NCBI RefSeq assembly: GCF_000686945.1
Contig: NZ_JMME01000002.1
Span: 298,121 to 362,120, forward strand
From: Selenomonas sp. AE3005
Lineage (GTDB): Bacteria; Bacillota; Negativicutes; Selenomonadales; Selenomonadaceae
DNA length: 64,000 nucleotides
Reading direction: 5' to 3'
Positions 24,855-29,206 of the stretch are shown piece by piece. Each line of letters opens with the position of its first letter. Position 1 is the first letter of the stretch. The notes beneath the pieces are model-generated. The model made no database searches, was not told the DNA's origin, and saw only the letters and a list, made by a program, of their open reading frames with translations. A program made the translations under genes and the position numbers.

Positions 24855-24892
24855 AATAAAAGATAATTTTTATTTTAAAGGAGAAATGAACC

Positions 24893-25096
24893 ATGGCAAG
24901 AAAAGCAAATTACGAAGAGAAAATTAACGCTATCGAAGAAAAGATTTCCAAAAAGCAGGACGAGATTAAAGCTCTGAAAGCACAGCTGAGCGAAATTAAA
25001 GCTAAGAAAGCTCAGGACGATTACAAAGAACTGACGGAATACATGACGGCTAACAACCTGTCTGCAGCTGAAGTTTTGGCACGTATCAACGGCTAA
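24893..25096 (+). CDS. Small charged coiled-coil protein
   Basis: 67-aa protein of unknown function. Residues 8-46 form a continuous Glu/Lys heptad-rich helix (EEKINAIEEKISKKQDEIKA...), a clear coiled coil, followed by a short C-terminal segment, DDYKELTEYMTANNLSAAEV. The acidic/basic pattern recalls small nucleoid or oligomerisation modules such as the dimerisation part of H-NS-like proteins, but no DNA-binding motif is seen and I do not assign it. It has a good own promoter, an AAAGGAG ribosome site and a perfect terminator, with high-expression codon choice, so it is probably an abundant monocistronic product. Confidence 0.75.
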   Translation: MARKANYEEKINAIEEKISKKQDEIKALKAQLSEIKAKKAQDDYKELTEYMTANNLSAAEVLARING

Positions 25097-25125
25097 GATA
25101 AAGCAAATTAAAACTGTATGTTTTA

Positions 25126-25157
25126 GGGAGCATTGCCTTAGGGCAATGCTCCTTTTT
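25126..25157 (+). terminator. Terminator after the coiled-coil gene
   Basis: GGAGCATTGCC and GGCAATGCTCC form a perfect 11-bp stem (short TTAG-type loop) followed by six T. Confidence 0.93.
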
Positions 25158-25214
25158 TGCAGGATATTGTTTTTTTTTAGCGAATACATAAATTATTAAA
25201 GGGGGCGTTTAAAT

Positions 25215-26195
25215 ATGGATGCGCAGAGATTGCGTGATTTTTTGGCCACCAAACCGGAACAATGTCATGTGCTGGTTGTCGGTGACATAATGCTTGATAA
25301 ATATTATTATGGTGATGTTACGCGAATTTCCGGTGAGGCACCCGTACCCATAACAAGGGTTAATTCGTCATCAGAAAAACTCGGCGGCAGTGCCAATATC
25401 GCGTATAGTTTGGCTGTGCTGGGCTGCCGGGTAAGTATTGCCGGCTTTGTGGGACGGGATTCGCATTGTGAAAGTCTGGTGGAACGCTTTAAGAACTACG
25501 GTATTGATACCGACGGGCTTATCTATACAGAACGTCCCACGACCACCAAAGTGCGTATTATGAGCGGCAATCAGCAGATGTTCCGCCTGGACTTCGAAGA
25601 TGACCGGCCGATAGCTTTGCAGGATATGGCGCGCTATGAGCAGTACATTGGCGAAAAACTCAGCGAGAGTCTGGACTGTGTGATTATTTCTGACCATGCC
25701 AATGGTGCCTGCACGGACGCCTCCTGCAGCTGGATTATTGAAAAATGTCATAATCACGGTGTGCCGGTGGTGGTGGATATGAGTGCCGCGACCTGGGTTA
25801 ATTACCGCAAAGCTGATTATGTGGTAGCGAACTTAAAAAGAATCAATAAAGAACTGTTGCAGCCGGCAGAGAATGAGGACGGTGCTGTGGAAAAAGCCTG
25901 CCATTATCTCATGCGTAAATTCCATGTGAAAAACGTAATTGCCACCAGGTCACAGCAGGGCTTGTCACTAGTGCGGACTGATGAGACGGTGCATATTCCA
26001 ACCGAGGCGCAGGAATTATTCGATGTCCTGGGTGCTACAGACGCCGTGACGGCGGTGTTTGGCCTGGCTGTGGCCGGAGGACTGCCACCGGCTTTAGGGG
26101 CGTATTTGGCTAATTTGGCAGCCAGCCGCGTTGTGACCAGATTGGGTACTTATGCGGTCACGCGCGAAGAACTGGCTGACCTGCTTATTTCCTAA
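25215..26195 (+). CDS. HldE/RfaE-like PfkB-family protein with eroded catalytic motifs
   Basis: 326-aa ribokinase-fold protein that aligns end to end with the kinase domain of HldE (heptose-7-phosphate kinase of lipopolysaccharide synthesis); it has no nucleotidyltransferase domain. The N-terminal part is well kept: VVGDIMLDKYYYGDVTRISGEAPVP, GGSANIA and the RLDFED segment. The C-terminal catalytic part is not: E. coli SDYAKGAL is SDHANGAC, VLIDPKGTDF is VVVDMSAATW, and the anion-hole GAGDT is GATDA, though its aspartate remains. It may be a weak kinase with another substrate or a pseudokinase used in regulation. AAAGGGGG precedes the ATG. Fold assignment is firm, activity is doubtful. Confidence 0.75.
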   Translation: MDAQRLRDFLATKPEQCHVLVVGDIMLDKYYYGDVTRISGEAPVPITRVNSSSEKLGGSANIAYSLAVLGCRVSIAGFVGRDSHCESLVERFKNYGIDTDGLIYTERPTTTKVRIMSGNQQMFRLDFEDDRPIALQDMARYEQYIGEKLSESLDCVIISDHANGACTDASCSWIIEKCHNHGVPVVVDMSAATWVNYRKADYVVANLKRINKELLQPAENEDGAVEKACHYLMRKFHVKNVIATRSQQGLSLVRTDETVHIPTEAQELFDVLGATDAVTAVFGLAVAGGLPPALGAYLANLAASRVVTRLGTYAVTREELADLLIS

Positions 26196-26207
26196 ATAAT
26201 AACGCTG

Positions 26208-26237
26208 ACGCCTATGGTAAATTTTTGCCATAGGCGT
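26208..26237 (+). terminator. Hairpin after the HldE-like gene
   Basis: ACGCCTATGG (26208-26217) and CCATAGGCGT (26228-26237) pair perfectly around TAAATTTTTG; the tail TATAATTATT is only moderately T-rich. Confidence 0.65.
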
Positions 26238-26290
26238 TATAATTATTGAAGTGCAAAGTAAACTTATGTTTGATATACAGGAGTGATTTT

Positions 26291-29206
26291 GTGAAGATAA
26301 ATGACCGTATACATGGTTTTAAAGTAATAAATCGCAGTGAAAGCAAGGAGACGAGTTCAGTCGCATGGACTTTTGAGCACGAAAAAAGCGGCGCCCGTCT
26401 CTTTTTCTTGGAAAATGATGATGACAATAAAGTCTTTTCCATCAGTTTCCGTACGCCGCCGGTTGATGATACCGGTGTGGCGCATATCGTGGAACATTCC
26501 ACCTTGTGCGGCAGCCGCAAATATCCCCTGAAGGAACCATTTGTGGAACTGGTCAAGGGTTCTTTAAATACCTTCCTCAATGCCATGACCTATCCGGATA
26601 AAACGATGTACCCGGTGGCCAGCCGTAATGACAAGGACTTCCAGAACCTGATGGATGTGTATCTCGATGCTGTATTCTATCCCTATATGCTGGAAAATCC
26701 CCAGGTGCTGATGCAGGAAGGCTGGCATTATGAGATTGAAAAGCCGGAGGACCCTCTGGTGTACAGCGGCGTTGTATATAATGAAATGAAGGGCGCACTG
26801 TCGGCACCGGACGATTTGCTCGAAAGCCGGATTATGGCAGCCCTGTATCCTGATACTACCTATGGCTATGAGTCCGGTGGTGACCCCGAGGCCATTCCGT
26901 CCCTGACTTATGAGATGTTCAAGGACTTCCATCAGCGCTATTATCACCCGAGCAACAGCTATATTTACCTCTATGGTGATTTGGATATCGAGGAAAAACT
27001 TGCATATCTCGATAAGGAGTATCTGTCTAACTTTGAACGTATCGCGGTTACGTCGCAGATTGAAAAACAGCAGCCTTTTGCCGGTTTGCTGCGGCAGAAC
27101 CTGCAGTACCCGGCCAGCCCTGATGAGGACACGGCCGAAAAATCCTTCCTGTCCCTGAGCTGGGTTATGGGCGACTCCCTGAACCTGCAGGACGCTATGG
27201 GGCTGGAAATCCTGGAACACGCTTTACTGCGCACGCAGGCTGCGCCCCTGCGCAAGGCACTTATTGATGCTCAGCTGGGCAAGGATGTTGATTCCAATTA
27301 CGAGGAGGATATTCTGCAGCCGTTCTTCAGCATTGTCATCAATAATTCTGAAGTAGACCGTGCAGATAAGTTCTATAATATTGTTTTTGACACCTTGAAA
27401 AAACTGGCGGATGAAGGCATTGATAAAACTCTGCTGGAGGCCTCCATCAACCTGCTCGAATTCCGTTTGCGTGAGGCTGATTTCGGTTCTGCACCCAAGG
27501 GACTTATCTATGGTATCCGCATTATGCGTACCTGGCTCTATGATGGTACCCCGGAAGATGTACTGGCTTACGAAGATATCGTTAAGGCCATGAAGGAAGG
27601 CTTGAACAATGGTTATTTTGAAGACCTGATTCGCCGTTACTTCCTCAACAATCCGCATGCTGCCCTGCTGACTATGGCCCCGAGCACGACGATGGCCGCA
27701 GAACGGGAAAAGGCGCAAGTTGAGCTTTTGGCTAAGAAAAAGGAAAGCATGAGCGCTGACGAGCTGCAGGAACTGGTGGCCGCTAATAAGGCCCTCAAAG
27801 AACGCCAGCAGAGTGTGGATACGGAAGAGGCACTGGCCAAGATTCCTGTACTAAAACTTAGCGACGTGCGGCAGAAAATATATGACCTGCCGCTGGCAGA
27901 ACGTGATATCGCCGGCACTAAGGTTCTCTTTAGTGATGTAGATACGCATGGCATTACATATTTAAGTCTGTTGTTTGATGCAGCAACTGTGCCGCAGGAA
28001 GATATCCAATATGCTTTCCTGCTGAGTGAACTCCTGGGCAGTGTAGACACGGACAAGCACAGCTATGCGGAACTTGCTAATTTGAAAAATCTTCATACCG
28101 GCGGCATTGCTTACGATATCGTCACCTATACCAAAAAAGATGAACCTGATTCCAGCGTGCCCAAGTTTAAGATTAAGGCCAAGGTCCTGCGGGAAAAAAT
28201 GCCGCAGCTTTTGGAACTGCTGCAGGAGATTATTCAAGGCAGCTGTTATGGCGATGAAAAGCGTATCCGCGAACTGCTCGAGCAGGAACAGTCCACGATT
28301 GAGCAGAATCTGCAGCGTTCGGCCCATCAGGTGGTCAGCTCCCGTCTGGCCGGGTATCTGACTCCGGCCGGCCGTTATGCAGATGAAGGCGGCCTGCCGT
28401 TCTATCCCTTTATTAAGGAGCTGCTGGCTGATTATCCTGCCAAACTGCCGGAATTGCATGCAAAGGTTACGGAAGTTGCCCGTAAAATATTTACGACCAG
28501 CAACCTCATTGTGAGCGTAACTGACAATGAGGAGCATTATGAGGAATTTGCCGCCAAATTTGCCGCTTTCCAGGAACAGCTCAGCCATGAGGAATATCCG
28601 GCACAGGCATATCACTGGGATTTGCAGCCTAAAAATGAAGGTCTTACGTCCTCGAGCCGCGTGCAGTATGTGGGCAAGGGCGCAAACTTCCTGAAACTTG
28701 GCTACAAGTTTACGGGCACCATGCATGTATTGGAAACCATGCTGCGCTATGATTACTTCTGGACGCAGATTCGCGTTTTGGGCGGCGCTTACGGGGCCCT
28801 TACCAGCTTTAACCGCAACGGCATGATGTTCTTTGGTTCCTACCGTGACCCGAATCTTACTGAAACCTTGGCGGTCTTTGACGGAACAGCAGATTATGTA
28901 CGCAATTTCACCGCCTCGGAGCGTGAAATGGATAAGTATATCATTGGGACCATGAGTAACATTGATACGCCGCTTACGCCGCAGATGAAGGGCGCGGCAG
29001 CTGCAACCTGCTGGCTCCGCGGGATTACGGCCACTGACCGGCAGAAATCCCGTGACGAGATTTTGGCAACGCGGCAGGAAGATGTCCGCGCTATGGCTGA
29101 CCTCATCGACAGCTGCATGCATGAGAATGTCCTCTGTGTGTTCGGCGGCCAGGAAAAGATTAACGAGCATAAGGACGTTTTCGGTGAGGTGCGCCCGGCA
29201 CTTTGA
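26291..29206 (+). CDS. M16C-family zinc metallopeptidase (PreP/falcilysin type)
   Basis: 971-aa insulinase-family peptidase of the one-chain M16C group, which degrades peptides inside a closed two-halved chamber. The inverted zinc motif HIVEH gives His65, Glu68 and His69; the distal glutamate lies in GVVYNEMKGALS about 80 residues on. GTG 26291 is chosen because AGGAG at 26279-26283 is seven bases ahead and the protein then starts VKINDRIHGFKV like its homologues; an ATG at 26246 has no ribosome site. No signal peptide is seen, so it is probably cytosolic. Its physiological substrates are unknown. Confidence 0.92.
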   Translation: MKINDRIHGFKVINRSESKETSSVAWTFEHEKSGARLFFLENDDDNKVFSISFRTPPVDDTGVAHIVEHSTLCGSRKYPLKEPFVELVKGSLNTFLNAMTYPDKTMYPVASRNDKDFQNLMDVYLDAVFYPYMLENPQVLMQEGWHYEIEKPEDPLVYSGVVYNEMKGALSAPDDLLESRIMAALYPDTTYGYESGGDPEAIPSLTYEMFKDFHQRYYHPSNSYIYLYGDLDIEEKLAYLDKEYLSNFERIAVTSQIEKQQPFAGLLRQNLQYPASPDEDTAEKSFLSLSWVMGDSLNLQDAMGLEILEHALLRTQAAPLRKALIDAQLGKDVDSNYEEDILQPFFSIVINNSEVDRADKFYNIVFDTLKKLADEGIDKTLLEASINLLEFRLREADFGSAPKGLIYGIRIMRTWLYDGTPEDVLAYEDIVKAMKEGLNNGYFEDLIRRYFLNNPHAALLTMAPSTTMAAEREKAQVELLAKKKESMSADELQELVAANKALKERQQSVDTEEALAKIPVLKLSDVRQKIYDLPLAERDIAGTKVLFSDVDTHGITYLSLLFDAATVPQEDIQYAFLLSELLGSVDTDKHSYAELANLKNLHTGGIAYDIVTYTKKDEPDSSVPKFKIKAKVLREKMPQLLELLQEIIQGSCYGDEKRIRELLEQEQSTIEQNLQRSAHQVVSSRLAGYLTPAGRYADEGGLPFYPFIKELLADYPAKLPELHAKVTEVARKIFTTSNLIVSVTDNEEHYEEFAAKFAAFQEQLSHEEYPAQAYHWDLQPKNEGLTSSSRVQYVGKGANFLKLGYKFTGTMHVLETMLRYDYFWTQIRVLGGAYGALTSFNRNGMMFFGSYRDPNLTETLAVFDGTADYVRNFTASEREMDKYIIGTMSNIDTPLTPQMKGAAAATCWLRGITATDRQKSRDEILATRQEDVRAMADLIDSCMHENVLCVFGGQEKINEHKDVFGEVRPAL

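Follow-up and report, generated by a model that had tools for sequence, protein, structure and literature searches.

The open reading frame at 25215..26195 (+) of the window, by which we mean the whole stretch of 64,000 nucleotides analysed here (G000:C2:298121-362120, from a genome of 2.82 Mb), raises the question of whether a protein with the sugar-binding side of a heptose-7-phosphate kinase and a strongly altered phosphate-donor side can still be a kinase. A first-pass annotation had described it as an HldE-like kinase with eroded ATP and phosphate motifs in an intact frame, possibly a pseudokinase that senses a sugar phosphate, or else an enzyme with a changed phosphodonor. The frame is indeed intact, running from the ATG at 25215 to the stop codon at 26193-26195 and encoding 326 amino acids. 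The Pfam PfkB model recognizes the protein with 100.5 bits, and the top NCBIfam model is TIGR02198 (heptose-7-phosphate kinase) with 282.7 bits, below the cut-off of 345, although this cut-off says little by itself because an E1-type kinase from the same genome (see below) also falls short of it with 318 bits. By sequence the closest solved structure is HldA of Burkholderia cenocepacia (4e84), and the AlphaFold model of our protein (mean pLDDT 90.3) superimposes on 4e84 with a Z score of 40.8 and an rmsd of 2.1 over 312 residues at 33% identity. We conclude that the gene encodes an intact paralogue of HldA/HldE-N with a PfkB fold nearest to that of HldA and a rewritten donor site. In the following “P” denotes this gene and its orthologues in Selenomonas; matches to P at 70-87% identity in named records come from Selenomonas, chiefly S. 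ruminantium. Annotation by similarity may label P-like genes as heptose kinases; the TIGR02198 cut-off keeps P out.

The residues reported to be changed and those reported to be kept are all found in P: SDHANGA, VVVDMSA, VANLKRINKE and GATDA on the donor side, and RISGEAPVP, GGSANIA and RLDFE on the sugar side, where P has the RISxEAPVP, GGxAN and RxDFE of HldA/HldE-N. We aligned 18 P rows, 69 canonical rows and 22 rows of a second group of HldA-like copies named Q (see below), 109 rows in all. SDHANGA (residues 159-165, 25689..25709, +) takes the place of canonical SDYGKGA, with His161 and Asn163 in 18/18 P rows and the corresponding Tyr and Lys in 69/69 canonical rows. DMSA (residues 188-191, 25776..25787, +) stands for DPKG, Ser190 being present in all 18 P rows and Lys in all 69 canonical ones, and VANLKR (residues 204-209, 25824..25841, +) stands for TPNxxE, which holds the Mg-binding NxxE motif. 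The alignment is gap-free at this position and places Arg209 of NLKR (codon 25839-25841, +; Arg in 18/18 P rows) opposite the Glu of 69/69 canonical rows; the Glu of INKE further downstream is not the motif Glu. Finally, LGATDA (residues 272-277, 26028..26045, +) replaces SGAGDT, so that P does not have a GxGD with both glycines: Thr275 is found in 18/18 P rows in place of the second Gly of 69/69 canonical rows, and the catalytic Asp276 is kept in 109/109 rows. Outside these motifs Arg305 (26127..26129, +) is fixed in 18/18 P rows at a position where 66/69 canonical rows have Val or Ile. The same five donor positions are altered in all 18 full orthologues, which places the changes beyond chance or sequencing error. 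Taken alone, the change from DPKG to DMSA proves nothing, since the alignment shows DxS at the same position in the active LacC-type PfkB kinase 2jgv. The 69 canonical rows are counted without the E1-type kinases, the HldE-like L066, the 23-residue fragment L112 and the repeats L113-L120; a further 12 rows (L168-L179) stand outside the 69 and, read apart, are canonical. The 18 P rows are counted without repeats of the same genes and without the split copy of genome G016 (L025, L100, L109), the readable part of which carries the same motifs as the other P.

The alterations are concentrated on the donor side. When 38 canonical rows were compared with 11 P rows, 16/90 near-invariant canonical columns were lost in P, 9/20 of those inside the four donor motifs and 7/70 of those elsewhere (Fisher p 0.001, a value that is only a guide because the tested motifs were those that the first-pass annotation had named), and 20 residues fixed in the 11 P rows were absent from the 38 canonical rows. 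Identity in the donor motifs is 89% within P and 48% between P and HldA of the same genus, while canonical groups show 94-96% among themselves. In the lid segments 25-57 and 98-127, P is 77% and 67% identical to HldA of the genus, compared with 78% and 70% for distant canonical groups. Asn206, Asp24, Asp28, Gly57, Asn61, Asp126 and Asp160 are invariant across 109/109 rows, and P retains the Asn of NxxE, the TRS residues and Asn300.

Orthologues of P were sought in 60 genomes of relatives and in 22 genomes of the genus. P is complete in 18 of the 22, its own genome included, and split over two contigs in one more (G016); the three genomes of the genus without P are 68, 81 and 82% complete. Canonical HldA is found in 18/19 P-bearing genomes, the exception being G015, where HldA may have been lost to assembly since the E1-type gene of this genome sits at a contig end. 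The frame is open in 18/18 full P orthologues, and the median pairwise dN/dS (NG86) of P is 0.042. For HldA, compared over the same pairs of genomes, the median is 0.048; both values come from the 21 of 136 pairs with dS between 0.02 and 1.5 in both genes, pairs which share branches. P is under purifying selection and is not eroding. The description of the motifs as eroded has to be corrected on this point, because the donor site was rewritten and afterwards preserved, as seen from the identity within P and the low dN/dS.

A heptose-making genome with no other heptose kinase had been named as the case that would speak against a pseudokinase. This case does not apply here: among the genes outside the window is an intact HldA at C5:18432-19400 (L002/L114), which has all canonical motifs and scores 357.8 bits, above the TIGR02198 cut-off. 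It is flanked by a heptosyltransferase-like gene and by HldD (419.3 bits, cut-off 274.6), and the same cluster contains the E1-type kinase mentioned above, adjoining a heptose 1-phosphate adenylyltransferase (211.5 bits, cut-off 181.5). A GmhA-like protein encoded elsewhere in the genome reaches 141.7 bits, below its cut-off of 209.45, and both heptosyltransferase-like proteins fall below their cut-offs. The heptose route is thus largely present together with an intact HldA, and therefore P is not needed as its kinase. There are six PfkB-family loci in this genome, and two types of heptose kinase, HldA and E1, coexist in it. The E1-type kinases (L003 at G000:C5:12883 and its relatives L070-L076) have VDSR and VKQNxxE for DPKG and TPNxxE, and keep GAGDT; the Glu of NxxE is kept in 8/8 E1-type kinases read.

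A loss of the same Glu is found outside Selenomonas. According to a family search of 189 genomes, most genomes of the genus g13 hold two HldA-type copies. Q comprises 22 second copies from 21 genomes, namely 20 of the 21 g13 genomes examined and G211 of genus g51 (rows L132-L150 and L152-L154); G120 contributes two copies, and the second copy of G162, cut by a contig end, was left out. For g13 beyond these 20 of 21 genomes Q was assigned by scores alone, among the matches listed. In 22/22 Q rows the Glu of NxxE is replaced, by Lys in 21 and by Arg in one; likewise, in 22/22 rows Tyr stands for the Lys of DPKG, Ala stands for the Ser that precedes GxGD, and Asp276 is kept. The second Gly of GxGD is retained in 4/22 (L138, L144, L146 and L153, all with GAGD). 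L138 and L153 branch first within Q and look like intermediates, and L152 is the most diverged. The other copy in Q genomes (8 rows read) has canonical motifs save for DPKC or DPKS instead of DPKG in two, L157 and L158 from two g13 genomes, and 12 sequences from ten further genera of the family all have canonical motifs. Q thus resembles P in being a second HldA-like copy that has lost the Glu of NxxE, the Lys of DPKG and the Ser before GxGD and has kept Asp276; it differs in having ADYEKG, MPYG and SAGAxD, other neighbours, and no sigma-H element in 21 upstream regions (see below). The neighbours of Q vary and include, as named by eye, a HAD phosphatase, a deformylase and a purH-like gene, among others.

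P and Q are each monophyletic at 100/100 and are joined at 98/94 when all columns are used. The join is retained at 92/93 after removal of the changed columns and their neighbours. These trees contained 11/18 P rows and, of the 22 Q rows, 14 (all columns) or 13 (reduced, where L152 and some canonical rows were omitted); another tree contained 18 P rows and one Q row. Since the join survives removal of the motif columns, P and Q are likely to stem from one old duplication, with long-branch attraction as a possible cause of the grouping. P as a recent in-genus copy of HldA was also considered and rejected: in the trees P stands apart from the HldA of its own genus, and a tree constrained to hold the two together was rejected only marginally, with a p-AU of 0.047 (11 P rows, no Q).

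What the changes should mean for catalysis can be judged from the ribokinase family, where NxxE takes part in Mg binding, the phosphates of the donor are recognized by both glycines of GxGD, and the Asp of this motif is the catalytic residue (PMC5931981). In mammalian (CHO) adenosine kinase a Glu-to-Lys change in NxxE gave an enzyme inactive in cells, the result with recombinant protein being given as “not shown” (PMC3118340). Q bears that same Glu-to-Lys change, and the Arg of P is a change of the same kind. Measured by loss of the residues for phosphoryl transfer, P qualifies as a pseudokinase at positions 209 (Glu) and 275 (Gly), though its catalytic Asp is retained. Judging from these residues P is probably incapable of normal Mg-ATP phosphoryl transfer; we do not put this higher because the Asp is kept and LacC shares the DxS. 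Of the first-pass proposals the pseudokinase is therefore the one that fares best, with the charge reversal at the Glu, the lost Gly, the joint replacement and later preservation of several canonical invariants, the intact HldA and the purifying selection in its favor and the kept catalytic Asp against it. There would be no need for a wholly inactive protein to retain this Asp, or the Asn of NxxE, the TRS residues and Asn300. Our preferred reading is that P is a kinase-dead, conserved HldA pseudoenzyme, controlled by sigma-H, that would bind heptose phosphate and/or HldA; as a whole we place this combination just short of an even chance. If true, P provides a simple test case of a sugar kinase that loses catalysis under full constraint.

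Because the catalytic Asp is kept, P could instead be a changed enzyme. The main rival explanation accordingly is an active, re-tooled enzyme that still uses the catalytic Asp to phosphorylate a sugar phosphate resembling that of heptose, but has a new donor geometry, metal or substrate. The presence of Asp276 in 40/40 P and Q rows, the low dN/dS at which P holds its new donor-site residues, as in a working site, and the resemblance of DMSx to the DxSG of LacC are all in agreement with such an enzyme. It would, however, have to work with a charge-reversed Mg-binding Glu, a lesion lethal to adenosine kinase activity, and with the second Gly of GxGD lost, and there is no pathway context around P. 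We find this explanation somewhat unlikely, yet worth serious consideration. An ordinary second HldA, which despite the changes would be an active heptose-7-phosphate kinase, is distinctly less credible given the loss of 16/90 near-invariant canonical columns, even if the sugar side, Asp276 and the overall fold are kept and the level of constraint equals that of HldA; the TIGR02198 score below the cut-off also speaks against it, but the E1-type kinase with its 318 bits shares this property.

A changed phosphodonor, in the form of pyrophosphate, finds its model in the TM0415 group, whose members are, like P, of the ribokinase family and have an altered donor site. According to PMC5931981 the PPi-dependent TM0415 has a signature of RXGRGD and an additional Lys two residues before the Asn of NxxE, and keeps the Glu of NxxE; kinases of this type also have two large hydrophobic residues that obstruct the ATP pocket. 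P does have an altered donor site with the catalytic Asp kept, and it has gained basic residues at 209 and 305, but none of the three basic residues described there as recognizing PPi is present: Val271, Ala274 and Val204 stand for Arg, Arg and Lys, and the Glu that TM0415 retains is gone. Judged by these residues, PPi as the donor is very improbable. That P is a decaying duplicate about to become a pseudogene would explain the missing donor motifs but is practically excluded by the 18/18 open frames, the dN/dS of 0.042, the genus-wide identical replacements and a conserved promoter element.

This promoter element is the basis for including sigma-H in the kinase-dead reading of P. A pattern match between an upstream hairpin and the start codon gave a sigma-H-type element, GCAGGATAT-N11-AGCGAAT, at 25159..25185 (+). 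The two boxes of sigma-H promoters are about 11-12 bases apart. PMC8510167 gives them as RNAGGAWWW and RNNGAATWW, and the element in the window fits both save for the last base. One broad pattern applied to the 200 bases upstream was found for 18/18 P, 0/21 Q, 0/11 HldA of the genus and 0/24 other HldA genes, where 21 of the 22 Q rows could be scanned because L149 starts at a contig end. A tighter form of the pattern gave identical counts and matched just once when both strands of the window were scanned in full. The strict sigma-H consensus was found before 9/18 P and had three matches in the window overall; it also occurs before 4/35 HldA genes, at 156-191 bases from the start and apparently within the preceding gene. 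Taken as a whole, the region upstream of P is poorly conserved, with 39% mean column identity (14 rows).

SigH itself is encoded in the genome (377.4 bits, cut-off 294.8). Genome-wide, GCAGGANNTT-N8-22-GCGAATA has 3 matches including the one at P, compared with 0 for the reversed pattern, and a related pattern, which does not fit the window's own copy, has 7 matches against 0 reversed. All seven of the latter lie 10-81 bases before a frame on the same strand, a placement that lends weak support because 46% of random window positions meet the same rule. Such elements (L187, L188, L192-L198) precede frames whose products, judged by eye, look like an oxidoreductase, an acetyltransferase, an anion symporter, a secreted nucleotidase and a CheV-like protein. 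The scan listed no sigma-70 promoter on the + strand in the interval from the upstream hairpin to the start of P. P thus looks like a monocistronic member of a small sigma-H set. In spore formers sigma-H serves as the transition-state sigma factor; Selenomonas, to our knowledge, does not sporulate. If P does belong to such a set, sigma-H gains a possible outer-membrane target in bacteria without sporulation.

For the kinase-dead P the following mode of action can be proposed. The sugar pocket and the lid, both retained from HldA, may serve P for binding either heptose phosphate or the HldA protein, and this binding would take place while sigma-H is active. As a partner contacting HldA via the lid, or by holding substrate, P could then reduce or gate the entry of heptose into LPS. 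The role of the pocket and lid is suggested by their conservation and the timing by the promoter element. Whether the sugar pocket that P has retained can still accommodate heptose phosphate, or a closely related compound, we consider close to a toss-up, leaning slightly to the negative. A contact between P and HldA is suggested by the conserved lid residues, which substrate binding could explain as well. It is rather unlikely that P regulates HldA, as its partner or as a decoy, in a sigma-H-active growth state, lowering or gating the flow of heptose into LPS. Still more speculative, and rather improbable as it stands, is the wider scheme of an old Selenomonadaceae pseudoenzyme lineage comprising P and Q, in which the Mg-binding Glu turned basic with the catalytic Asp kept and in which P, a dead heptose kinase put under sigma-H, tunes LPS heptose as growth slows. 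If true, P represents a possible control point for the supply of the LPS core in diderm Firmicutes.

With its closest active relatives, HldA/HldE-N (4e84), which are D-glycero-beta-D-manno-heptose-7-phosphate kinases acting at O1 of their substrate, P shares the fold, the sugar-side motifs, the lid and the catalytic Asp, and differs from them by replacement of the Glu of NxxE, the second Gly of GxGD, the Lys of DPKG, and the Tyr and Lys of SDYxKG. We found no paper on the contact residues of HldA and nothing useful on Selenomonas and heptose, and no bacterial heptose-kinase pseudoenzyme in the literature searched, in which few subscription papers were represented. WcbL belongs to another kinase superfamily. 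Parallels to a regulatory role are known from eukaryotes. For the plant FLN1 and FLN2, which are pfkB-type proteins belonging to the RNA polymerase of plastids, PMC3409070 reports that no substrate was found and discusses a role as sensors; by this description they resemble P as PfkB-type proteins with a possible sensor role, and differ from it in being eukaryotic, fructokinase-like and part of a polymerase complex. The same paper tells of yeast Gal3p, an inactive galactokinase-like sensor that binds sugar and regulates. Gal3p has, as a kinase-like protein, the sugar-binding regulatory role proposed for P; it belongs to another kinase family and acts on an inhibitor of transcription.

The sequences surrounding P show nothing indicating heptose. 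Upstream, at 24870-25100 between hisA and P, lies a small lysine-rich, coiled-coil-like frame with a strong terminal hairpin; neither hisF nor hisI was seen directly 3' of hisA. The hairpin with its T-run that closes this small gene (25128..25158, +), identified by eye and absent from the scan listing, ends just before the -35 element, and AGGGGG at 25200..25205 (+) is the probable ribosome-binding site of P. A terminator-like hairpin was found by the scan at 26206..26239 (+), 3' of P, and TATAAT at 26238..26243 (+) is a possible -10 box of the next gene's own promoter; TATAAT occurs at most 60 bases past the P stop codon in 12/16 loci. This next gene, at 26291..29206 (+), encodes an M16C/PreP-type peptidase (Pfam M16C_assoc, PreP_C and Peptidase_M16_C) and is a constant downstream neighbour, located 3' of P in 25/25 P loci, in which several genomes are counted twice. 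We do not claim a functional link between P and the peptidase from this neighbourhood, because the TATAAT after the P stop codon may belong to a promoter of the peptidase gene itself. At L084/L092 in genome G014 the peptidase gene after P looks frameshifted, since it reads as three pieces that overlap.
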